From Accumulibacter sp. (GTDB lineage Bacteria > Pseudomonadota > Gammaproteobacteria > Burkholderiales > Rhodocyclaceae), in NCBI GenBank assembly GCA_024235715.1, contig JACKLW010000005.1, positions 930,001-994,000 on the forward strand: 64,000 bases of DNA, given 5' to 3'. Shown here one piece after another: positions 47,144 through 63,775 of this stretch. Both the position numbers and the translations under genes were made by a program. Every line of letters begins with the position of its first letter. The stretch's first letter is position 1. The notes under the pieces are model-generated. The model did not search any database and had not been told where the DNA came from. It saw only the letters and a program-made list of their open reading frames with translations.

Positions 47144-50100
47144 ATGCGCCCGCATCAACCTGCTTCCCTACTCAAGCCGACCCTGCTCGCCATCCTGCTC
47201 GCCTTCCCCGCCCAACAGGCGCTTGCCACCGCCTGCACCTGGGACCCGGCCACCGGCAACTGGAACCTGGCGGGCAACTGGAGCTGCAACGCGGTGCCGG
47301 GCGTCAACGACGACGCGACAATTGGCGTCGGCACGACGGTCACCGTAGACCTCGCCCAGTCGATCCGCAACATGACCAACGCCGGCGGCGTCGATATCGA
47401 CGCTTTCCTGCTCACGCTGTCGGGTGCCGGCGGCACGACCAACACCGGCACCATCAATGTCGGCGCCGGGCCAAATCCCGACAACGCCGCACTAAACGTC
47501 AATGCCGGCCACAACATCGACAATACCGGCGGAGTGATCAACGTCAGCCCCGACAGCGTTCTCAACCAGTTTGGCAGCACCATCACCGGCGGCACGATCA
47601 CGACCACGGGTACGGGCTCGATCGTGGCATTCAACAACGCCAGCAACCACCTCAGTGGCGTGACGCTCAACGGGACACTGGATCTGGCCTCCGGCGTCGG
47701 TCGCGAGCGGATCCTGAATGGTCTGACCCTCAACGGCGGGGTCACCGTCAACAGCAACAGCATCCTCAGCTTCGAGGGTACGCAGACCGTCGGCGGCAAT
47801 GGCAACATCGTCTTTGGCAACACCAGCGGCAGCAATCGCCTCGACCTCGATGGCGATGGCACCACCACCTTCGGCGCCGGCATCACCATCCGCGGCGAGA
47901 ACGGCACCATCGGGCAGCAGATCAACATCGGCGGCACGCAGACACTGGTAAACGAGGGGCTGATTTCGGCCGACGTCAGCGGCGGCGCGATCACCGTTAC
48001 CCAATCGGCCGTAAGCAATAACAACCTGATGGAGGCGCGCAACAGCGGCACCTTGATCCTGGCGAGCAATGTGACCAACTCAGGCTCTGGCATGATCCTG
48101 GCCGACAACGGCCTCGTCCTCCAGTCAGGCCAGCGGGTCACCGGTGGAGCGATCAATTCGGCCAACGGCGGGCTGTTCCGGGCCACCAACAACGCCAACA
48201 ACTATCTGGACGGCACGACGCTCAACGGTACGCTCGATCTGGCCACCGCCGTCGGCCGCGAGCGTGTGGTCAACGGACTGACCCTGAACGGCACGGCCGC
48301 GCTCAACAACAACAGCATACTCAGCTTCGAAGGCACACAGACAGTGGCCGGCGGCGGCTCGATCGTGCTCGGCGCTAGCGGGGCAAGCAACCGCATAGAC
48401 CTCGACGGCGACGGTACGACCACCATCGGCTCAGGCATTTCCATCCATGGACAAAACGGTACCATCGGCCAGCAGATCAATATCGGCGGTACGCAGACGC
48501 TGCTCAACAATGGCAAGATCTCGGCAGACGTTTCTGGAGGAACGATCAACATCACCCAATCGGCGGTGACCAACTCTGGCATTCTGGAAGCCCGGAACGG
48601 CGGCACATTGCAGCTTTCCAGCGCCGTGACCGGTGGTGCCGGCGGGCAGATCGTCGCGGCTACCGGCAGCACGGTGCTACAGAACGGGGTGACCATCAGC
48701 GGTGTGGTCAATACCAGCGGCACGGGATCTTTTCGCGCTTCCAACAGCGCGAACAACTTCCTCAGCAGCGTGGACTTCTCCGGCATGCTCGATCTGGCGA
48801 GCGCCATTGGCATCGAGCAGGTGACAGGCGGACTGACGCTCAACAGCGCGACGATCAACATCGCTCAGGCCAGCACCCTGGCGCCACGGGGCGACCAGAC
48901 CATCGGCGGCACCGGCACGATCGTCTTCGCCGACGGCAACGCCAGCAACCGGCTGAACGTCGAAGCCGGCAATCTGGTCCTCGACAGCGGCATTACGGTT
49001 CGCGGTGAAACCGGGCGGATCGGCAACCAGAGCTTCGTCGGCGGCGCCGCAACCCTGACCAACAACGGCACCATCCAGGCCGACGTAAACGCTGGCCAGA
49101 TCACCATCGCGGTCAACGGCCTGACGACCAATAACGGAACGCTCGCGGCGCTGAACGGCGGCACGCTCAACCTCAACTCCAGCGTGCAGGGCAACCTCGG
49201 CAGCCAGATCCTCGCTGGCGCTGGTAGCGTGGTGGCGCAGAACGGGGTGACCATCAGCGGTGTGGTCAACACCAGCGGCACGGGATCTTTTCGCGCTTCC
49301 AACAGCGCGAACAACTTCCTCAGCAGCGTGGACTTCTCCGGCATGCTTGATATGGCGAGCGCCATTGGCATCGAGCAGGTGACAGGCGGACTGACGCTCA
49401 ACAGCGCGACGATCAACATCGCTCAGGCCAGCACCCTGGCGCCACGGGGCGACCAGACCATCGGCGGCACCGGCATGATCGTCTTCGCCGACGGCAACGC
49501 CAGCAACCGGCTGAACGTCGAAGCCGGCAACCTGGTCCTCGACAGCGGCATTACGGTTCGCGGTGAAACCGGGCGGATCGGCAACCAGAGCTTCGTCGGC
49601 GGCGCCGCGACCCTGACCAACAACGGCACCATTCAGGCCGACGTAAACGCCGGCCAGATCACCATCGCGGTCAACGGTCTGACGACCAACAACGGCACGC
49701 TGGCGGCGCTCAACGGCGGCACCCTCAACCTGAACTCGGCGGTCACCGGCACCACCGGCAGCCAGATCCTCGCCGGCGCCGGCAGCGTCGTGGCGCAGAA
49801 CGGGGTGGCGATCAGCGGCGACATGAACCTCACCGGCCCGGGTTCGTTCCGCGCCAGCAACTCCGCCAGCAACTTCCTCAGCGGGGTCACTCTCGCGGGA
49901 ACGCTCGACCTTGCGTCGGCCATAGGCATCGAGCGTGTCGCCGGCGGCCTCACGCTCGACGGCGCGACGATCAACATTGGCAACAACAGCATCCTCGCAC
50001 CGCAGGGTGACCAGATCATCGGCGGTACCGGTAGCATCGTCTTCGCCGATGCCAGTTCCAGCAACCGATTGAATGTCGAGGCGGGCAACCTGATACTTGG

Positions 50101-53100
50101 TGCGGGCGTTTCCGTGCGTGGCGGCAACGGTTTCATCGGGCAGCAGGCTTTTGTCGGCGGCGGTGCAACGCTGACCAACCAGGGCCTGATCTCGGCCGAC
50201 GTTGCCGGGCGCAGTATCACGCTGGGAGTCAGCGGTCAGGTGATCAACGAGAACATCATGGAAGCCCGCAACGGCGGCCAGTTGACGCTGAATGCCGGCG
50301 GCGGCTACGACAATAGTGCCGGTACCATGCTCGCCGAGGGCGGCAGCACGGTGCTTTTCAACGGCACAGCGGTAACCGGCGGCGTGCTCAACAGCAACGG
50401 CAGCGGCAAGTTCGTCGCCAGCAACAGCAGCGTCAACTTTCTCAACGGCACGATACTTAACGGCGCACTCGACATGGCGTCGGCCGTCGGCATCGAGCGC
50501 ATCTCGGCGGGGGGAATGACGCTCAACGGCGCGATCAATATCGGCAGCGGCAGCATCCTGGCGCCGCAGGGCGATCAAACCATCGGCGGCAACGGCAGCA
50601 TCGTCTTCGCCGACGGCAACGCCAGCAACCGCTTGAACGTCGAGGCCGGCAACCTGACCATTGGCAACAACGTGACGGTACGCGGACAAACCGGATACAT
50701 CGGTCAGCAGGCTTTCGCCGGAGGCGCGGCAACGCTGACCAACAACGGCACCATCAACGCCGATAGCGGCGGCACGATCACCGTCAATGTCACCGGCGCA
50801 TTGACCAACAACGGCACGATGCGCGCCCAGAACGGAACACTCCTGATCCAGGACGGACTCGCCGGCACGGGCACGCTGCAGGTCGATTCGACCGGCGTAA
50901 CAAACCTCGCCAACACCCCCAATACGCAGGGCAAGCTGGTGATGGGCGCTGCCGGCTCGACGCTCAACATCGGCACGCAGAACCTGACGATCACCAATGA
51001 CTACACCAACGTTGCGTCAGGCAGCGGCAACAACTTTGACCGCCGCGCCGGGGTCAGCGGTGCCGGCCAGATCGTCGCCGGCGGCGACGCCGCGCAGGCG
51101 ATCACCGGCAGCAGCGTGACCGACGGCAACACGGCCAATGCCACGATGACCATCGGCAACGTTCGCGTCGGCACCAATAACCTGGCCTACCAGATCGCCA
51201 ATACCGGCAGCAGCGGACCGCAGTTGCGCGGCGCCGTCCAGACCAGCGTCAACGGTGCCAACCTGACCGACAGCCGCCTCGGCGGCGCCGGCGTCACCGC
51301 CGGCAACTACGATACCGGTGGGCCCGGCAACGATACCGGCGACCGGGCGGTGACCTTCACCGTCGCCACGGCCGGCAACCTCGCGCCGCTCACCGGCCAG
51401 GTGCTCAACCTGCGCAGCAACTTCGAGAACATCGCCGACCAGAAGCTGAACATCGTCGTCGGCAGCGGTGCGGCAGCCTACAATCCCGCCGTCGGCAGCG
51501 CCTCGCCATCGCCGCTGCAACTCGCCAACCAGCGCGTCGGCGGCAGCGGCAGCGCCGCATTGACGGTAAGCAACACCGCCGCGGCCGGCAGCTTCAGCGA
51601 GGACCTCATCGCCAACTTCGGCAACAACAGTGGCGCGGCAAGCAATAACGGCGGCAGCGTCGCCGGGCTGCTCGCCGGCAGCAGCAACGCCAGCGCCATG
51701 CGCGTCGGCGTAGACACCAGCAGCGCCGGCGCCAAGAGCGGCAGCGTCACGATCGACTACCAGACCGCAGGCGCGGTAAACGGGGTCAGCAACGGTCTCG
51801 GCGCCGCCAGCGCCGGCAGCCAGAACATTACCGTCAGCGGCGACGTCTATCGCCTGGCACAGGGCGCCGCGACGCCGACACCGGTCAGCTTCGGCAACCG
51901 CCACGTCGGCGATTCCGCCAGTCAGCTGCTGGCGGTCCAGAACACCGCCGCAGCCGACGGCTTCTCCGAAAAGCTCAATGCCAGCATCAGCTCCAATGGC
52001 GCGCAGGTCACCGCCAGCGGCAGCTTCAACCTGCTCGCCGCGCAAGCGACCGACAGCAGCAGCCTGCAGGTCGGCATCGACACCAGCAGCGCCGGCGCCA
52101 AGAGCGGCAGCGCGACGATCACCTATGCCTCCGACGGCACGGGCAGCAGCGGCTTGTCGGCCATTGGCGCCGGCAGCCAGACGATCAACGTCAGCGGCGA
52201 CGTCTACCGTCTGGCCGCGGCCAACACCCTCGGGGCTGTCGCTTTCGGCAACGTCCACGTCGGCGACTCCGTGCAACAGGCGCTGAGCATCACCAATACC
52301 GCTGCCAACGACGGCTTCTCGGAAAAGCTCACGGCCAGCTTCGGCGCCAGTTCGGACGCGCGCATCACCACCAGCGGTGGCGTCAGCCTGTTGGCGGCGG
52401 GTTCGACCGACAGCAGCAGCATGCTCGTCGGCCTGGACACCAGCGCCGCCGGCAACGTGAACGGCACACAGGTGATCAATTTCGTTTCCGACGGTAGCGG
52501 TACCAGCGGCCTGGGTGTCAGCGCACTGGCGTCGCAGACGATCGGCGTCAGTGGCGACATCGTCACCAACGGCAGCGTCTTCCGGCTGGCCAGCGCCAGT
52601 CCGGCGACCCCCAACCCGGTGGATTTCGGCAGCGTCCGCATCGGCAGCACCGCCGACCAGGCGCTGAGCATCACCAACACCGCTGCCAACGACGGCTTCT
52701 CCGAGAAGCTCAATGCGAGCATCAGTTCCAACGGCACGCCGGTCACTGCCAGCGGAGCGTTCGACCTGCTCGCCGCGCAGGGGACCGACAGCGGCAGCCT
52801 GCATGTCGGCATCGACACCGGCAGCGCCGGCGCCAAGAGCGGCAGCGCGACCATCGCCCTGGTCTCCGACGGCACCGGCACCAGCAACCTGGGGACGACC
52901 AATCTGACGCCACAGACGGTGAACGTCAGTGGCGACGTTTATCGCCTGGCCGATCCGACACTGAATACCAGCAGCGTCACGCTGGCGGCACGCCGGGGCG
53001 ACGCGGCGCCGACGGCTGCAATCAGCGTCAGCAACAGCAGCCCGGACAACTTCACCGAGGGTCTGAAAGCCGGTATCGGCGCAACGCCGGCCGGCTTCAC

Positions 53101-54136
53101 CGGCAGCGGCAGCATCGGCAACCTGGCTGCCCAGGGCACCGATGCCGGCAGCCTGCAGGTCGCTCTCGATACCGGCATTGCCGGCAGCTTCGGCGGCGAT
53201 GCGCGACTCGACTTCGAATCGACTGGCGCCGGCACCACTGGCGCGGCCGATATCTCGGTCGGCAGCCAGCTGGTCAGCCTGGCCGGCAAGGTCTACGAGA
53301 AGGCCATTGCCCAGGTCAATACGGCACTGGTCGACTTCGGCATAGTGCACAAGGGTGACGTGGTGACTGCGAAGAACGTGTCGGTGAGCAACGGCGCAGC
53401 AGTCGCCGGCCTCAACGACACACTGCAAGGCAGCTTCATCAACATGCCAAGCGGCCCCTTCGGCGGCAGCGGCAGCGTCGATGTGGCAGCCGGACAGAGC
53501 GACGCCAGCAGCCTGCTGGTCAGCCTCGACACCAGCAACGCCGGCGTCTTCAGCAGCAGCGGCGACAGGCTGCAGTTCGCCAGCCACAACCCTGACATGG
53601 CCGATCTGGCTCTCGCCAATGCCTCGCTGGCGCTGCAGGCACAGGTCAACAACTACGTTGACCCGACGTTCCTGAAAACCTCCGGCGCCGGCGTGCTGAG
53701 CGGTACCGGCCTTAACTTCATGCTCGACTTCGGCACTCTCACCCAGGGCAGCGGCATGGTCAGTGCCTTGCTGGCGCTGGCCAACGATGCCAGCGGTCCT
53801 GCCGACCTGCTCGACGGGGCTTACGCGCTGGCCGTCAGCGACTTCCTGAAGAGCGGTTTCGTCGATTTCACCGATCTCGCAGCGGGTCAGTCGCAAGGCG
53901 GGCTGCAGATCAGTCTGGAGACCCTGAACGTAGGCAACTTCAGCGACACCATCGTACTCTCGGCACTCGGTCACAACGCCAGCGGCTTCAGCGCCGCCTT
54001 CGGCGACGTGACGCTCACCGTCCAGGCCAGAGTCCAGGCGGGTGGTGGCCAGATTCCCGAGCCGGGGAGCCTGCTGTTGCTGACCATCGCGCTGGCGATC
54101 ATCGTTCTCCAGCGCCGCCGCGGAATGTTAGACTAG
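47144..54136 (+). CDS. Giant repetitive secreted protein with C-terminal PEP-CTERM sorting signal
   Basis: 2330 residues with a GGAGGAG site. The signal peptide is LLKPTLLAILLAFPAQQALA. Residues ~150-1255 form six tandem ~185-residue Gly/Asn/Thr-rich beta-strand repeats, each with an LNGTLDLAS.G.ER...GLTL core and a GGTGSIVFADGNASNRL-like core, suggesting a beta-helix. A linker to ~1430 leads to six choice-of-anchor-D-type domains (pattern FGNRHVGDSASQLLAVQNTA). The end is IPEPGS, a hydrophobic helix and RRR, a complete PEP-CTERM signal for exosortase processing. It is probably an extracellular matrix or surface adhesion protein. No exosortase gene is in the window. Confidence 0.9.
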   Translation: MRPHQPASLLKPTLLAILLAFPAQQALATACTWDPATGNWNLAGNWSCNAVPGVNDDATIGVGTTVTVDLAQSIRNMTNAGGVDIDAFLLTLSGAGGTTNTGTINVGAGPNPDNAALNVNAGHNIDNTGGVINVSPDSVLNQFGSTITGGTITTTGTGSIVAFNNASNHLSGVTLNGTLDLASGVGRERILNGLTLNGGVTVNSNSILSFEGTQTVGGNGNIVFGNTSGSNRLDLDGDGTTTFGAGITIRGENGTIGQQINIGGTQTLVNEGLISADVSGGAITVTQSAVSNNNLMEARNSGTLILASNVTNSGSGMILADNGLVLQSGQRVTGGAINSANGGLFRATNNANNYLDGTTLNGTLDLATAVGRERVVNGLTLNGTAALNNNSILSFEGTQTVAGGGSIVLGASGASNRIDLDGDGTTTIGSGISIHGQNGTIGQQINIGGTQTLLNNGKISADVSGGTINITQSAVTNSGILEARNGGTLQLSSAVTGGAGGQIVAATGSTVLQNGVTISGVVNTSGTGSFRASNSANNFLSSVDFSGMLDLASAIGIEQVTGGLTLNSATINIAQASTLAPRGDQTIGGTGTIVFADGNASNRLNVEAGNLVLDSGITVRGETGRIGNQSFVGGAATLTNNGTIQADVNAGQITIAVNGLTTNNGTLAALNGGTLNLNSSVQGNLGSQILAGAGSVVAQNGVTISGVVNTSGTGSFRASNSANNFLSSVDFSGMLDMASAIGIEQVTGGLTLNSATINIAQASTLAPRGDQTIGGTGMIVFADGNASNRLNVEAGNLVLDSGITVRGETGRIGNQSFVGGAATLTNNGTIQADVNAGQITIAVNGLTTNNGTLAALNGGTLNLNSAVTGTTGSQILAGAGSVVAQNGVAISGDMNLTGPGSFRASNSASNFLSGVTLAGTLDLASAIGIERVAGGLTLDGATINIGNNSILAPQGDQIIGGTGSIVFADASSSNRLNVEAGNLILGAGVSVRGGNGFIGQQAFVGGGATLTNQGLISADVAGRSITLGVSGQVINENIMEARNGGQLTLNAGGGYDNSAGTMLAEGGSTVLFNGTAVTGGVLNSNGSGKFVASNSSVNFLNGTILNGALDMASAVGIERISAGGMTLNGAINIGSGSILAPQGDQTIGGNGSIVFADGNASNRLNVEAGNLTIGNNVTVRGQTGYIGQQAFAGGAATLTNNGTINADSGGTITVNVTGALTNNGTMRAQNGTLLIQDGLAGTGTLQVDSTGVTNLANTPNTQGKLVMGAAGSTLNIGTQNLTITNDYTNVASGSGNNFDRRAGVSGAGQIVAGGDAAQAITGSSVTDGNTANATMTIGNVRVGTNNLAYQIANTGSSGPQLRGAVQTSVNGANLTDSRLGGAGVTAGNYDTGGPGNDTGDRAVTFTVATAGNLAPLTGQVLNLRSNFENIADQKLNIVVGSGAAAYNPAVGSASPSPLQLANQRVGGSGSAALTVSNTAAAGSFSEDLIANFGNNSGAASNNGGSVAGLLAGSSNASAMRVGVDTSSAGAKSGSVTIDYQTAGAVNGVSNGLGAASAGSQNITVSGDVYRLAQGAATPTPVSFGNRHVGDSASQLLAVQNTAAADGFSEKLNASISSNGAQVTASGSFNLLAAQATDSSSLQVGIDTSSAGAKSGSATITYASDGTGSSGLSAIGAGSQTINVSGDVYRLAAANTLGAVAFGNVHVGDSVQQALSITNTAANDGFSEKLTASFGASSDARITTSGGVSLLAAGSTDSSSMLVGLDTSAAGNVNGTQVINFVSDGSGTSGLGVSALASQTIGVSGDIVTNGSVFRLASASPATPNPVDFGSVRIGSTADQALSITNTAANDGFSEKLNASISSNGTPVTASGAFDLLAAQGTDSGSLHVGIDTGSAGAKSGSATIALVSDGTGTSNLGTTNLTPQTVNVSGDVYRLADPTLNTSSVTLAARRGDAAPTAAISVSNSSPDNFTEGLKAGIGATPAGFTGSGSIGNLAAQGTDAGSLQVALDTGIAGSFGGDARLDFESTGAGTTGAADISVGSQLVSLAGKVYEKAIAQVNTALVDFGIVHKGDVVTAKNVSVSNGAAVAGLNDTLQGSFINMPSGPFGGSGSVDVAAGQSDASSLLVSLDTSNAGVFSSSGDRLQFASHNPDMADLALANASLALQAQVNNYVDPTFLKTSGAGVLSGTGLNFMLDFGTLTQGSGMVSALLALANDASGPADLLDGAYALAVSDFLKSGFVDFTDLAAGQSQGGLQISLETLNVGNFSDTIVLSALGHNASGFSAAFGDVTLTVQARVQAGGGQIPEPGSLLLLTIALAIIVLQRRRGMLD
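48682..49740 (+). repeat. Near-identical 558-bp tandem duplication inside the PEP-CTERM gene
   Basis: The block starting near 48682 recurs with a fixed offset of 558 bp (for example, gaccatcagcgg at 48691 and 49249). Identity is very high for the first ~450 bp, with only a handful of mismatches, falling towards the end of each unit. Older copies of the same ~185-codon unit precede and follow it with much lower identity, so this pair is the most recent duplication. Confidence 0.88.
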
Positions 54137-57245: not shown

Positions 57246-59669
57246 CTACATCACCGTGACCTCGACACGACGCGCCTCGGCGGGATCACCGCTGCCGGTC
57301 GTCAGCTCGGGCTTCCTGAGTTCGAAACGCTCTTCGCCAATACCGACGTTCTGCAGCGCATCACGCACGGCGAGCGCGCGATTCTTCGCGAGTTCGGCAT
57401 TCGCGTACTGGCTGCCACTCATGTCGTGGAACCCCGAAATGGCGAGCTTGGCGCCAGCGTTGGCCCTGGCATAGACGACGATGCCGTCGAGCGTCGTCGC
57501 CACGTCAGCCGGCAGTTCTGCCGAACCCACTTCGAAATAGACCGTGGCCATCGGCAGCGCGGCTGCCATAGCCACGGCTGGCACAGCCGGAGCCGGCACA
57601 GCTGCCGCCGGCTTGGCGCCCGCGGCGGGAACCATCAGCGGCACGATCATCAGGGCAACGATGTTGATGATCTTGATCAGCGGATTGACTGCCGGGCCCG
57701 CCGTGTCCTTGTACGGGTCGCCGACGGTATCGCCGGTCACCGATGCCTTGTGGGCTTCCGAGCCCTTGCCGCCAAAGTTGCCGTCCTCGATGTACTTCTT
57801 GGCGTTATCCCAGGCACCGCCACCAGTGGTCATCGAGATGGCGACAAACAGGCCTGTGATAATCGTTCCCATCAGCAGTCCACCGAGCGCTTTCGGACCG
57901 AGAAGCAGTCCGACGACCACCGGTACCAGAACCGGCAGCAGCGAGGGGATGATCATCTCGCGAATCGCGGCAGCGGTCAGCATGCCGACGGCGCGGGAGT
58001 AATCCGGCTTGGCCTTGCCTTCCATGATGCCCTTGATTTCCTTGAACTGCCGGCGCACTTCGACGACCACCGCGCCAGCCGCACGACCCACCGCCTCCAT
58101 CGCCATGGCAGCGAAGAGATAGGGGATCAGACCACCGAGGAAGAGGCCGATGATCACCATGTGATCGGAGAGGTCGAAGCGCAGAACACTGCCGAAGTTG
58201 GCTTCAAGCGCGTGCGTGTAGTCGGCGAAGAGGACCAGTGCCGCCAGACCGGCAGAACCGATGGCATAGCCCTTGGTCACCGCCTTGGTGGTGTTGCCGA
58301 CGGCGTCGAGCGGGTCGGTCACGTCGCGCACCGACGCCGGCAGACCGGACATCTCGGCGATGCCGCCAGCGTTGTCGGTGATCGGACCGTAGGCATCGAG
58401 GGCGACGATGATACCGGTCATCGAAAGCATTGACGTCGCGGCGATTGCGATGCCGTAGAGACCCGCCAGCGCGTGGGTGATGTAGATCGCCGCACACACT
58501 GACAGCACCGGCAGCGCACAGGCCTTCATCGAGACCGCCAGGCCGGCAATGATGTTCGTGCCGTGACCGGTGGTCGAGGCCTGTGCAACCTGTTTGACCG
58601 GCGCAAAGTCGGTGCCCGTGTAGTACTCGGTGATCCATACCAGCAGACCGGTCAGCACCAGGCCAATCGCCGCTGCTCCGAAGATGCTCCCCGAGGTGAT
58701 CAACCTGCCGTCGGCAAGCGTCACGCCGTCGCCGAGCAGCATGGTGGTCACCGGGTAGAAGGCGACGAGTGCCAGGGCACCAGCCACGGCCAGGCCGCGG
58801 TAGAGGGCGTTCATGATCTTGCCACCATCGTTGGCCTTGACGAAGAAGCAACCAATGATCGAGGCAACGATCGATACGCCACCCAGGACCAGCGGGTAGA
58901 TGATCAGATTGTCGTTGGCACCGGCAACGCCCTTGAGCATCATCGCGCCGAGAACCATCGTCGCCACCACGGTCACCGCGTAGGTCTCGAAGAGGTCGGC
59001 CGCCATGCCCGCGCAGTCGCCGACGTTGTCGCCAACGTTGTCGGCGATGACCGCCGGGTTGCGTGGGTCGTCTTCCGGAATTCCAGCCTCGACCTTGCCG
59101 ACCAGGTCGGCACCGACGTCGGCGCCCTTGGTGAAGATACCGCCACCGAGACGGGCAAAGATGGAGATCAGCGAACCGCCGAAGGCGAGACCGACCAGCG
59201 GTTCAACCGCGTGCTGAAAGTCATCGCCGCGGAGGGCTGCGTAGTATCCGGCAACCCCCAGCAGGCCCAGACCGACGACCAGCATGCCGGTAATGGCGCC
59301 ACCCTTGAAGGCGACGTCCAGCGCCGCGGCAATGCCATTTCGCGCGGCTTCGGCGGTGCGCACGTTGGCGCGCACCGAAACGTTCATGCCGATGAAGCCG
59401 GTGGCTCCCGACAGGACGGCGCCGATCAGAAAGCCGATGGCCATCAGTTTGCCGAGTGCCAGCCAGATGACGACGAAGAGAACGGCACCGACGATGCCGA
59501 TGGTTGTGTATTGCTTGGCGAGATACGCAGAAGCGCCTTCCTGAATGGCCTTGGCGATTTCCTGCATACGCGGATTTCCGGCAGGCAAGCCGAGAATCCA
59601 TTTGGTCATTGCCGCGCCATAGACAACGGCAATGACCGCGCATAACAGCGCGAACACGAGATAACCCAT
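57246..59669 (-). CDS. hppA: Membrane-bound H+-translocating pyrophosphatase fused to a C-terminal OmpA-like domain
   Basis: 807 residues from the ATG at 59669 (GGGAGG upstream). Residues 1-682 are a full M-PPase of about 16 helices. The pyrophosphate-binding acids are in [19 protein letters not shown] (200-218), [12 protein letters not shown] follows, and the K+-independence lysine is Lys462 in [14 protein letters not shown], so it should be a K+-independent proton pump. An Ala/Pro linker (683-707) leads to a ~100-residue OmpA domain (708-807) with [20 protein letters not shown], the peptidoglycan-type residues Asp749 and Arg764, and a final RRVEV. M-PPase C-termini face outward, so the domain would be periplasmic. 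The enzyme conserves pyrophosphate energy as proton motive force. Confidence 0.93.
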
Positions 59670-59968: not shown

Positions 59969-60640
<672 letters not shown>

Positions 60641-60741
60641 TTAGAGTCGAGAAAATTGTCCAGAAGTTCAAACACTTGCACCACAGGCACGATCCCTCCG
60701 CAGCACGTTGTCGTGATTGATCAACACGCTGCAACTTACCC

Positions 60742-61521
60742 TCAAACGTGTGCCCGGTCAAACTTTTCGAACCACTCCTGAACACGCCGGGCATCCGCCG
60801 GCGTATCGACCCCCGCGGCCGGCAGTTGCTCGGCGATGGCCACGCTGATGCGAAAACCATGCCACAGGGCGCGCAGCTGTTCGAGGGCCTCGAGCCTTTC
60901 CGGCGGCGACGGTGAGAGGCTGGCATAGGTGCGCAGGAAGCGCGCACGATAGGCATAAAGTCCGACATGCCGATAGGCGAGCATCCCGGCTGGCAGCGTT
61001 TCGCCGCCGGCCTCGCACGCAAAATGGTCGCGCGCGTAGGGGATCGGCGCCCGCGAGAAATAGAGCGCATCGCCCGAACGGGCGAGCACCACCTTGACGA
61101 CGTTGGGATTGAAGAAATCGGCGGCGTCGGCCACCGCATGCGCGACGGTGGCGATGTCGGCACCGCTCCGGGCCAGCTGAACCGCCGTCTGTACGATTAG
61201 CGCCGGCTCGATCAACGGTTCGTCGCCCTGCACATTGACCACCATTGTCTCGTCGGACCAGCCAGCAGCCTCGACGACCTCGGCCAGTCGATCGGTGCCA
61301 CTGGCGTGATCGCTGCGGGTAAGCAAGGCGCGCAGACCATGACGCCGGGCAACGCTGAGCACTTCCGGATGGTCGGTGGCCACCAGCACCTCGTCAGCCC
61401 CCGACAGAATGGCACGTTCGGCGACGCGCACGACCATCGGTTTTCCGGCCAGATCGAGCAATGGTTTGCCCGGCAAACGGGTCGATGCGTAGCGCGCCGG
61501 GATGACCACCTTGAACTGCAT
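60742..61521 (-). CDS. kdsB: 3-deoxy-manno-octulosonate cytidylyltransferase
   Basis: 259 residues. CMP-KDO synthetase motifs are [53 protein letters not shown] and [12 protein letters not shown]. It activates KDO for the LPS inner core. It lies 15 bp after trm112, in the lpxK-trm112-kdsB order common in betaproteobacteria. Confidence 0.96.
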
Positions 61522-61536
61522 CACGAGGCCCGCCGC

Positions 61537-61713
61537 TCAGGCGTCGTCGGCGGTCAGCGGGCGCGCTTCGTCCTGCAGCATGATCGGAATGCCGTCGCGG
61601 ACCGGGAAGGCGAGTTTGCACGGTTTGCAGAGCAGTTCCGACTGTGCCTTGCGGTATTCCAGGTTCGCCTTGCAGATCGGGCAGACGAGAATATCAAGCA
61701 GGCGTGCGTCCAT
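61537..61713 (-). CDS. Trm112/YcaR family zinc-ribbon protein
   Basis: 58 residues from MDARLLDILVCPICKANLEY. Two Cys-x2-Cys pairs (CPIC and CKPC) form a zinc ribbon, and DGIPIMLQDEAR is the family end motif. Trm112 proteins act as small activators of methyltransferases in other organisms; the bacterial partner is uncertain. The gene starts inside the end of lpxK (20-bp overlap). Confidence 0.92.
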   Translation of the reverse strand: MDARLLDILVCPICKANLEYRKAQSELLCKPCKLAFPVRDGIPIMLQDEARPLTADDA

Positions 61714-62740
61714 GCAGTTTCTCCAGAATTGTCTCCAACAGACCGGCGCCACCCGGTGCGGTGCCGATGACCGCCTCGACCGGCAGACCCCAGGCTTCGC
61801 CGGTCACGATCGGCGCACATTTTACCGCATCTTTCTCGGTCATCAGCAGTACGCCGTCGGCGGCAAAAGCCAGATCGGCAGCCGTGTAGGGATGATGATC
61901 GGGAAAGGGGTGCGCCTCGAAATCGAGCCCAAGCGTCCTCAACTGCGCGAAGAAGCGACCCGGATCGCCGATACCGGCCAGCGCATACAGCTTGCGGCCG
62001 CGCAGCGCATCGGCGTCACAACTGCCTGCGCCACCCCCGGCAGAGACGAAGCGTCGGCCGAGCAGGCGCATCTCGAACTGTGGCACGCCGGTCGCCGCAG
62101 CCAACACCGACTGCTGCGGGCTGCCGTTCCAGACCACCGCGGCGACACCCGCGAGGCGCCGCACCGGCTCGCGCAGCGGACCGGCCGGCAACAGCCAGCC
62201 GTTGCCGATGCCGCGCCCGTCGAAGACGACCAGTTCGGCCGCGCGCTGCAAGCGATAGTGCTGCAGGCCGTCGTCGGAAACGATCACGTCACAGTCGGGA
62301 TGAGCGTCCAGCAACGCCAGTCCGGCGGCCGCGCGATCGCGACCGACAAAGACCGGTACGCCGCTGCGCCGGGCCAGCAGTACCGGCTCGTCACCAAGCA
62401 GTGACGGGCTTGAGTCGACCAGGACCGGACGAACCCCTTCGCCGCTGCCGCCGTAGCCACGGCTGATGATCCCGGGTCGCCAGCCGGCTGCACGAAGGCG
62501 GTGCACCAGCCACAGCACGAGCGGTGTCTTGCCACTCCCGCCGACGGTCAGATTTCCGACCACGATCACCGGCACAGGCAGTCGCCGCGCGCGTAGCACG
62601 CCGCGGCGGTATAGCCAGCGACGCAGCAATGCCAGCATGCCGAACAGCCAGGACAGTGGTGCCAGTGGCCAGAGGGCGGGCGTCAGCCGCCTTTCGTACC
62701 ACCGCCGGGGGAGACTCTGCGCGATGCCGCAAGCGGCCAT
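61694..62740 (-). CDS. lpxK: Tetraacyldisaccharide 4'-kinase
   Basis: 348 residues. One N-terminal membrane-associated helix (PLSWLFGMLALLRRWLYRRG) precedes the P-loop IVVGNLTVGGSGKTPLVLWL. IISRGYGG and DVIVSDDGLQHYRL are further signature motifs. It phosphorylates the lipid A precursor at the cytoplasmic face of the inner membrane. Its ATG overlaps the exbD stop (TGATG). Confidence 0.96.
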   Translation of the reverse strand: MAACGIAQSLPRRWYERRLTPALWPLAPLSWLFGMLALLRRWLYRRGVLRARRLPVPVIVVGNLTVGGSGKTPLVLWLVHRLRAAGWRPGIISRGYGGSGEGVRPVLVDSSPSLLGDEPVLLARRSGVPVFVGRDRAAAGLALLDAHPDCDVIVSDDGLQHYRLQRAAELVVFDGRGIGNGWLLPAGPLREPVRRLAGVAAVVWNGSPQQSVLAAATGVPQFEMRLLGRRFVSAGGGAGSCDADALRGRKLYALAGIGDPGRFFAQLRTLGLDFEAHPFPDHHPYTAADLAFAADGVLLMTEKDAVKCAPIVTGEAWGLPVEAVIGTAPGGAGLLETILEKLHGRTPA

Positions 62741-63156
62741 CAGCGCGGCGATTGCGTGGCGAAGGAAATGCGTGGGTAGCCCGCGAGTTGCGCCGCCTGC
62801 ATGACATCGATGACGCTCTGGTGTGTTGCCTTGGCGTCGGCATTGATGACCACCACCGGATCCTTGGCGTCGCCGACGGCTCGTCGCAGCGCTTGACTGA
62901 TGGCCTCGACGCTGACTTCAGCGAGCGGCGTCTTGTTGATCAGCACCTGACCGGCAGGCGTCACCGTCACACTGACCTCTTCCGGCTGCTCCTTCTGCTT
63001 GCTGGCATCGGCCGTCGGCAGGTTGATCTCGAGCCCGGAGAACTTGGCGTAGGTGGTGGTCAGCATCAGAAAGATGATGATCACCAGCAGCACGTCGATG
63101 AAAGGAATCAGGTTGATTTCGGGGACGTCACTGACGCGACCACGTCGGAAGTTCAT
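62740..63156 (-). CDS. exbD: Biopolymer transport protein ExbD/TolR family
   Basis: 138 residues. One N-terminal helix contains the proton-pathway aspartate (EINLIPFIDVLLVIIIFLML), followed by a periplasmic ~95-residue domain that ends GYPRISFATQSPR. It forms a proton channel with the ExbB/TolQ protein encoded 10 bp upstream. Position next to lpxK is typical of betaproteobacteria and does not decide between Ton and Tol roles. Confidence 0.92.
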   Translation of the reverse strand: MNFRRGRVSDVPEINLIPFIDVLLVIIIFLMLTTTYAKFSGLEINLPTADASKQKEQPEEVSVTVTPAGQVLINKTPLAEVSVEAISQALRRAVGDAKDPVVVINADAKATHQSVIDVMQAAQLAGYPRISFATQSPR

Positions 63157-63166
63157 TGCCGGCTCC

Positions 63167-63775
63167 TCAGGACTTGCGCTCGCCATGCAGAACCTCGACC
63201 AGACGCACCGCCTGTTGCTGCATCTCGATGACGAAGCTGGAGACCAGCGCACGAAAATGGCGCCAGAAGATCATGCTCGGAATGGCGATCAACAGTCCGA
63301 AGCCGGTGTTATAGAGGGCCACCGAAATCCCGTGTGCCAGCTGCATCGGGTTGCTGCCGCTGGGCGTCTGCGAACCGAAGATCTCGATCATGCCGACGAC
63401 GGTGCCGAAGAGACCCATCAGGGGGCTGATCGAGGCGATGGTGCCGAGCGTGGTGAGGTAGCGTTCGAGGTCGTGCGAAACGACGCTGCCGGCTTCCTCG
63501 ATCGACTCCTTCATGATCTCGCGCGAGCTGCCCTCGTTGCGCAAGCCGGCCGCCAGCACCCGACCGAGCGGCGAGTGCGCCTCGAGATCGGCAACCATTG
63601 CCGTGGTCGCACCCCTTTGCCGGAATTCCGCGACCACCCGCTGCAGCAGCCCGGGCGGAACGACTTTGCTGCTGCGCAGCGCCACCAGGCGCTCGATGAT
63701 CAGCGCGACGGCAAGAACCGACGCCAGCAGCAAGGGCCAGATCGGCCAACCAGCAGCCTGAACGATGGAAAGCAC
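63167..63775 (-). CDS. exbB: MotA/TolQ/ExbB proton-channel protein
   Basis: 202 residues with three membrane helices (WPIWPLLLASVLAVALIIER; ATIASISPLMGLFGTVVGMI-like; ISVALYNTGFGLLIAIPSMI). The conserved LGTIASISPLMGLFGTVVGM segment is the family signature. It energises an outer-membrane transport or envelope-maintenance machine with ExbD. It begins the leftward exbB-exbD-lpxK-trm112-kdsB block. Confidence 0.93.
   Translation of the reverse strand: MLSIVQAAGWPIWPLLLASVLAVALIIERLVALRSSKVVPPGLLQRVVAEFRQRGATTAMVADLEAHSPLGRVLAAGLRNEGSSREIMKESIEEAGSVVSHDLERYLTTLGTIASISPLMGLFGTVVGMIEIFGSQTPSGSNPMQLAHGISVALYNTGFGLLIAIPSMIFWRHFRALVSSFVIEMQQQAVRLVEVLHGERKS

Follow-up and report, generated by a model that had tools for sequence, protein, structure and literature searches.

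In Candidatus Accumulibacter, a phosphorus-removing genus that we take, following GTDB, to belong to the Burkholderiales, the gene of the membrane pyrophosphatase HppA was found to run on in one open frame into an OmpA/Pal-type domain. Judging from the fold and from residue conservation, we lean towards reading this fusion as a pump tethered to the cell wall by a mobile periplasmic module. Within the window, that is, the whole stretch of 64,000 nucleotides that was analysed, the gene is encoded on the minus strand; the preliminary description had given no strand.

The fusion gene and its pump core

The features of the fusion gene are listed in Table 1. Pfam H_PPase (PF03030) matched residues 12-675 with 892.7 bits over 645 of 645 profile positions, indicating a full-length pump. 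The best NCBIfam model for the core, NF001951, is named sodium-translocating, a label common to most of the family. In the Foldseek search, the best PDB coverage of the core was given by the K+-independent pump 8b37_A (TM 0.90). In an alignment, K462 and T465 stand opposite A and G of the plant K+-dependent pump. The Lys in GNTTKA together with the Thr three residues on, which we take to be the mark of the K+-independent H+-pump subgroup, are both found in HppA as this pair. The core is probably a K+-independent proton pump, as far as its residues tell.

One H_PPase copy was found in the genome that carries the window. Some other Accumulibacter genomes (G001, G009, G011, G012, G013 (L067), G015 and G019) additionally encode a strongly diverged membrane pyrophosphatase (about 31-34% identity; frames mostly 779-875 aa), which is absent from the window's genome. 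Of the 19 Accumulibacter loci L032-L050, 18 have adk as the neighbour of hppA; the remaining one, L044, breaks off within hppA. A same-strand row of adk and genes that we presume to be kdsB-, lpxK- and exbD-like lies upstream of hppA (59969-63252, minus), an order kept in most Accumulibacter loci examined. Elsewhere in the window, a repetitive protein of 2330 residues (47144-54136, plus) has a C-terminus that, by eye, resembles a PEP-CTERM sorting signal.

Table 1. Features of the hppA-OmpA fusion gene and its upstream neighbour (positions are those of the window)
Feature	Position	Strand	Remarks
hppA-OmpA fusion gene	57246..59669	minus	807 codons and stop, single open frame
M-PPase core, residues 1-682, 16 hydrophobic segments	57624..59669	minus	PF03030, NF001951, Foldseek, hydropathy
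Core catalytic motif, 19 residues	residues 200-218	minus	
Core catalytic motif, 10 residues	from residue 458	minus	
Core catalytic motif, 11 residues	from residue 646	minus	
Last membrane segment, residues 664-682	57624..57680	minus	directly after cytoplasmic catalytic loop
Ala/Pro linker, residues 683-707	57549..57623	minus	disordered
OmpA/Pal-type domain, residues 708-807, shortened last loop	57249..57548	minus	PF00691, phmmer, fold model
D749, predicted diaminopimelate contact (= TagL Asp486)	57423..57425	minus	D in 53/54 fusions
N757 (= TagL Asn494)	57399..57401	minus	N in 50/54 fusions
R764 (= TagL Arg501)	57378..57380	minus	R in 54/54 fusions
adk, adenylate kinase	59969..60622	minus	upstream neighbour of hppA, outside fusion

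Conservation of the fusion within the genus

In 27 of the 28 Accumulibacter genomes, including the single-contig genomes G010 and G016, a single frame holds the whole fusion; in the 28th (G006), hppA is cut at residue 560 by the contig end. In the preliminary description, the sign of a false junction was to be an OmpA segment that close relatives encode separately; what was found was the fusion in all 27 testable genomes. Rates of substitution were compared among the 27 Accumulibacter genes (351 pairs in all, those with 0.05<dS<0.7 being usable). The median dN/dS was 0.066 for the core (218 pairs), 0.18 for the domain (44 pairs) and 0.58 for the linker (59 pairs), indicating that the domain is kept by purifying selection which is weaker than that on the core and stronger than that on the linker.

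Fold and predicted binding site of the domain

Pfam OmpA (PF00691) matched residues 711-784 with 44.2 bits (cut-off 27.2), covering just profile positions 1-76 of 98, and phmmer matched the domain to Pal 4g4v (2.3e-6). In the AlphaFold2 model of the fusion (18 aligned fusions, mean pLDDT 73), the pump is followed by a low-confidence stretch (677-704, pLDDT <50) and, from about residue 707, by a tail predicted to be a folded OmpA/Pal-type domain. The top Foldseek matches of this model were pyrophosphatases, followed by Pal 4g4w (TM 0.80 on target, rmsd 2.1). A model of the domain only, built from 14 sequences of mixed hosts, reached a pLDDT of 89.7 and matched the diaminopimelate-bound OmpA domain 3td4_B (TM 0.86, rmsd 1.9) as well as 4g4w (TM 0.83) and TagL 5m38 (TM 0.79). 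MotB (3cyp) and YfiB were also among its fold matches, and so were OmpA-type domains solved in protein complexes (Pal-TolB and YfiB-YfiR).

According to the passages of PMC8253398 on the binding site, TagL contacts diaminopimelate through Asp486, Asn494, Leu497 and Arg501. D749, N757, L760 and R764 of HppA have a spacing of 0/8/11/15, identical to that of the TagL contacts. In an alignment of 54 fusions (27 from Accumulibacter and 27 others), position 760 was aliphatic in all 54 (Leu, Val or Ile), and the D, N and R columns were kept while many other columns of the domain vary freely. R800 and R801 are constant by construction, because it was by their RR motif that sequences received the OmpA label. 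Losses were also observed: the HppA of G310 has A at the D749 position, and N757 together with a nearby Gly is lost in 4 of the 27 Accumulibacter genes (L023, L025, L026 and L029). In one further HppA (L131 of G372), the OmpA domain is truncated and His replaces the conserved Asp, an apparent decay.

The last loop of the domain reads KP..G..ARRVEV where the canonical loop has GYG..NRRVE, and it is shortened in 53 of the 54 fusions. The canonical form (GYG..N..GR..NRR) is absent from the window's domain and is kept by L056 alone among the 54. Given that this loop varies within the family, its shortening is the mark of a subtype and does not exclude the domain from PF00691. In TagL, according to the relevant part of PMC8253398, the lining of the peptidoglycan crevice is made by three loops, the corresponding loop among them.

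Predicted topology and linker

The hydropathy scan gave 16 segments, with the catalytic motifs only in odd loops and thus on one side of the membrane. The odd loops contain 31 K+R residues and the even loops 5. Because one segment follows the last catalytic loop, and in view of this charge pattern, the C-terminal tail is predicted to be periplasmic. The domain would thus sit in the periplasm, as in inner-membrane wall anchors of the TagL/MotB type. The preliminary description had proposed one frame joining a 16-helix M-PPase, an Ala/Pro linker and an OmpA domain, with a C-terminus facing away from the cytoplasm. The frame was borne out by Pfam, hydropathy and AlphaFold2, the order and boundaries of the domains by Pfam and AlphaFold2, and the predicted orientation agrees with the charge rule and the catalytic loops. 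Its Asp749/Arg764 pair, 15 residues apart, proved exact and conserved (Table 1).

Counted from the end of the core, the linker has 21-106 residues across the 54 fusions. Within part of the genus, some linkers have merely 21-24 residues, so their reach to the wall may be tight; a literature search found no paper giving the distance from the inner membrane to the wall, and PMC6882861 gave no match to topology terms. The linker of 106 residues (L028/L049 of G011) is lengthened by repeated Ala/Pro/Thr/Val units.

Distribution and evolution of the HppA fusion

HppA homologues with a C-terminal OmpA domain, a search for which had been proposed in the preliminary description, were found in at least 25 of 399 genomes of the order, across at least 13 family codes; this count includes G372, with its truncated domain, and G119, where the gene lies at contig ends. 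In the sample of the class, the fusion was present in 1 of 369 genomes, which is the window's own. In that of the phylum, it was present in 5 of 398, four of the same order and one of another family (G1097, f63). On a tree of 119 pump cores made by a quick method, 15 changes are required to explain the fusion label, and well-supported branches force 14 of these; the 18 rows labelled as linker include G119 (cut at the contig end) and G372 (truncated domain). Several relatives have the Ala/Pro tail without the domain.

A tree of the domains was also made by a quick method (78 rows, 103 columns, poor resolution), with 17 of the 54 HppA rows, all from Accumulibacter, left out. On this tree, 9 changes are required to place the HppA domains, starred branches forcing at least 3 of these, and the HppA domains formed one group in 0% of bootstraps. 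The HppA domains of three families (f49, f46 and f38) fell among single-helix anchors (97/90), and those of CoxB, PufC, cytochrome c and RND proteins formed one group (97/96). The canonical OmpA domain of L056 (G067) grouped with an Accumulibacter lipoprotein domain (99/91), so that at least this capture was a separate one. The domain tree as a whole points to a mobile module that was captured repeatedly. One ancient fusion followed only by losses found no support in the 9 changes and the bootstraps.

The same short-loop domain on other hosts

Close relatives of the domain, with the same shortened loop, were found on other inner-membrane proteins of the order, a recurrence on energy-converting proteins that the preliminary description had overlooked. 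Among the matches listed for a model of the HppA tail, ranked by score, 58 have the domain outside a complete HppA frame. Electron-transport proteins account for 23 of these (the oxidase subunits CoxB, 11 with one in a broken frame, and CcoP, 3, the photosynthetic cytochrome PufC, 8, and 1 cytochrome c), transport proteins for 3 (2 RND adaptors and 1 AmtB) and BON and DUF937 proteins for 8 (4 each). The others are 23 proteins with one hydrophobic segment, whose single-helix status, like the identity of some hosts, was judged by eye or likeness, and 1 HppA cut by a contig end. Representatives were confirmed by family models for CoxB (TIGR02866), CcoP (TIGR00782), PufC (NF040706) and the RND adaptor (TIGR01730), and likewise for the ammonium transporter, cytochrome c, BON and DUF937 hosts. 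In each of these hosts, so far as they are known, the domain is presumably on the periplasmic side. In the ammonium transporter AmtB (L259:1820-2401, G353), a signal-like segment and the OmpA domain precede the first transporter helix, and the cbb3 oxidase subunit CcoP of L292, L295 and L296 (G376, G405 and G255) ends in the same OmpA subtype.

In 64 non-HppA domains, the Asp was present in 63 and the Asn in 64, the PufC of G349 having S for Asp; only these two counts are informative, because the extraction pattern required R764 and the RR pair. When a fused CoxB was used as the query, CoxB was found in 171 of 250 genomes of the order, at least 7 of which match through the domain. Since the list of hosts was made with the HppA-tail model and cut by score, a preference for energy converters cannot be shown from it. 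Clear-cut specificity for such hosts found no support either, given the 23 single-helix and 8 BON/DUF937 proteins among those listed.

Eight of the at least 25 genomes with the HppA fusion also belong to the at least 23 in which an electron-transport protein is fused to the domain (hypergeometric 2e-5 over 399 genomes), a value that counts relatives separately and to which four families only contribute, with a broken frame in the CoxB of G250 and no Asp in the PufC of G349. This co-occurrence is a hint. In the window's genome, the CoxB has no fused domain, and the matches listed contain no second strong member of the subtype from this genome, so in this case the module would tie only the pump. 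Because this CoxB lacks the fused domain, the idea that the module clusters it with the pump was rejected.

Interpretation and alternatives

In the reading that we favour, the C-terminus would leave the membrane on the periplasmic side and bear the OmpA/Pal-type domain on a flexible Ala/Pro tether. The domain is predicted to hold diaminopimelate-containing peptidoglycan via D749, N757, L760 and R764, and a pump dimer with two such domains would be tethered to the wall. What the analysis shows is the frame, the predicted fold and side, the residue conservation, the purifying selection and the recurrence of the subtype on several hosts; peptidoglycan binding, clustering and any functional gain for the pump are inferred. 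Given that close relatives of the domain occur on other energy converters and on single-helix anchors, the general job of the module would likely be to fix, space or cluster membrane machines and would not be specific to pyrophosphate chemistry. That TagL, a polytopic inner-membrane protein, holds the wall with a periplasmic C-terminal domain (in the part of PMC8253398 concerned) counts for the tether. The losses of Asp and Asn, the decay in G372, the patchy presence, the shortened crevice loop, the short linkers and the unfused CoxB of the window's genome count against it.

Alternatively, the domain might have a role in assembly, stability or clustering by binding a protein, be it another protein of the OmpA type, a partner complex or the second subunit of the dimer. 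The shortened last loop has its own conserved KP..G signature, the authors of the TagL study allow this loop to serve protein partners (PMC8253398, in the passage on the loop), and Pal-TolB and YfiB-YfiR complexes are among the fold matches. However, the columns that correspond to the diaminopimelate contacts of TagL are among those kept best, which would be needless for a protein interface, and we regard protein binding as unlikely. It is quite unlikely that the domain is a weakly selected passenger that recombination adds and removes and that hardly affects the pump. Its patchy presence in the order, the 15 changes on the core tree, the linker-only tails of several relatives, the decayed domain of G372 and a dN/dS roughly three times the core value would all fit a passenger, whereas its retention in every testable genome of the genus, a dN/dS well below 1, the selective retention of D, N and R and the repeated independent capture argue against one.

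By analogy with MotB, the domain might sense the state of the wall and gate the pump, given that the tether joins it to the last helix and that MotB and YfiB are among the fold matches. The length (21-106) and sequence of the linker are nearly unconstrained, an argument against a mechanical link between domain and core, and we regard gating as very improbable. The probability of an assembly or annotation artefact is negligible: nothing was found in its favour, and a mis-join was ruled out by the same frame in 27 of 28 independent genomes, two of them single-contig, with purifying selection on both sides of the junction.

Beyond the tethered pump, a wider reading can be offered tentatively, although we hold it to be doubtful: the short-loop OmpA module may link both the inner-membrane energy converters and the single-helix anchors of Burkholderiales to a common wall lattice. 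Its scope would possibly comprise the pyrophosphate pump, the aa3/caa3 and cbb3 oxidases and the photosynthetic reaction-centre cytochrome. If this is true, peptidoglycan immobilises or gathers bioenergetic complexes. For the placement and holding of respiratory and ion-pumping complexes in bacterial inner membranes, the domain offers a direct test, being a removable domain of the wall-binding type that is kept across the genus of the best-studied phosphorus remover and recurs on oxidases and a photosynthetic cytochrome.

Comparison with known systems

The preliminary description, right on architecture, residues and topology, went too far in calling a wall-anchor arrangement new. The bare fusion is already known from PMC11210485 (PeerJ 2024), which reports, in the sections concerned, an OmpA-like C-terminal domain on an m-PPase of 810 residues from Paucibacter sp. 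KCTC 42545, together with four more such m-PPases from Burkholderiaceae/Betaproteobacteria (Table 2 and the legend of Fig. S4 there). These proteins share with the fusion described here the architecture, a length of about 810-818 aa, the bacterial group and a K+-insensitive pump. In those sections, the domain is said to resemble OmpA remotely (TM 0.052 when compared with E. coli OmpA as a whole) and its role is left for future finding; they do not name Accumulibacter, nor do they treat the binding residues, topology, a count of the distribution or other host proteins, all of which are given here. What goes beyond the known fusion is the same short-loop domain on other inner-membrane hosts, which was not found in print: among the matches listed in searches of open-access full texts, no report of such domains on CoxB, PufC or CcoP was found, and PMC8552683 and PMC6769254 contain no fused OmpA domains.

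TagL and the specialised TssL of type VI secretion have the same arrangement of inner-membrane part, linker and periplasmic C-terminal OmpA/Pal/MotB domain, and TagL has the same contact residues and spacing as the HppA domain (PMC8253398, in the passages on these proteins). TagL differs, according to the same passages, in being a secretion-machine anchor with a longer last loop and tested wall binding, whereas HppA is an ion pump whose wall binding is predicted. The MotB stator, like the fusion, is an inner-membrane energy converter tied to peptidoglycan via an OmpA-type domain. MotB couples wall binding to ion flow, and the stator is fixed to the wall to produce torque; unlike it, a pyrophosphatase has, to our knowledge, no need for fixation. 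The Pal and YiaD lipoproteins share the fold and the residues of the diaminopimelate site. Pal is an outer-membrane lipoprotein, whereas the HppA domain, whose last loop is shorter, is predicted to be attached to a pump of the inner membrane.
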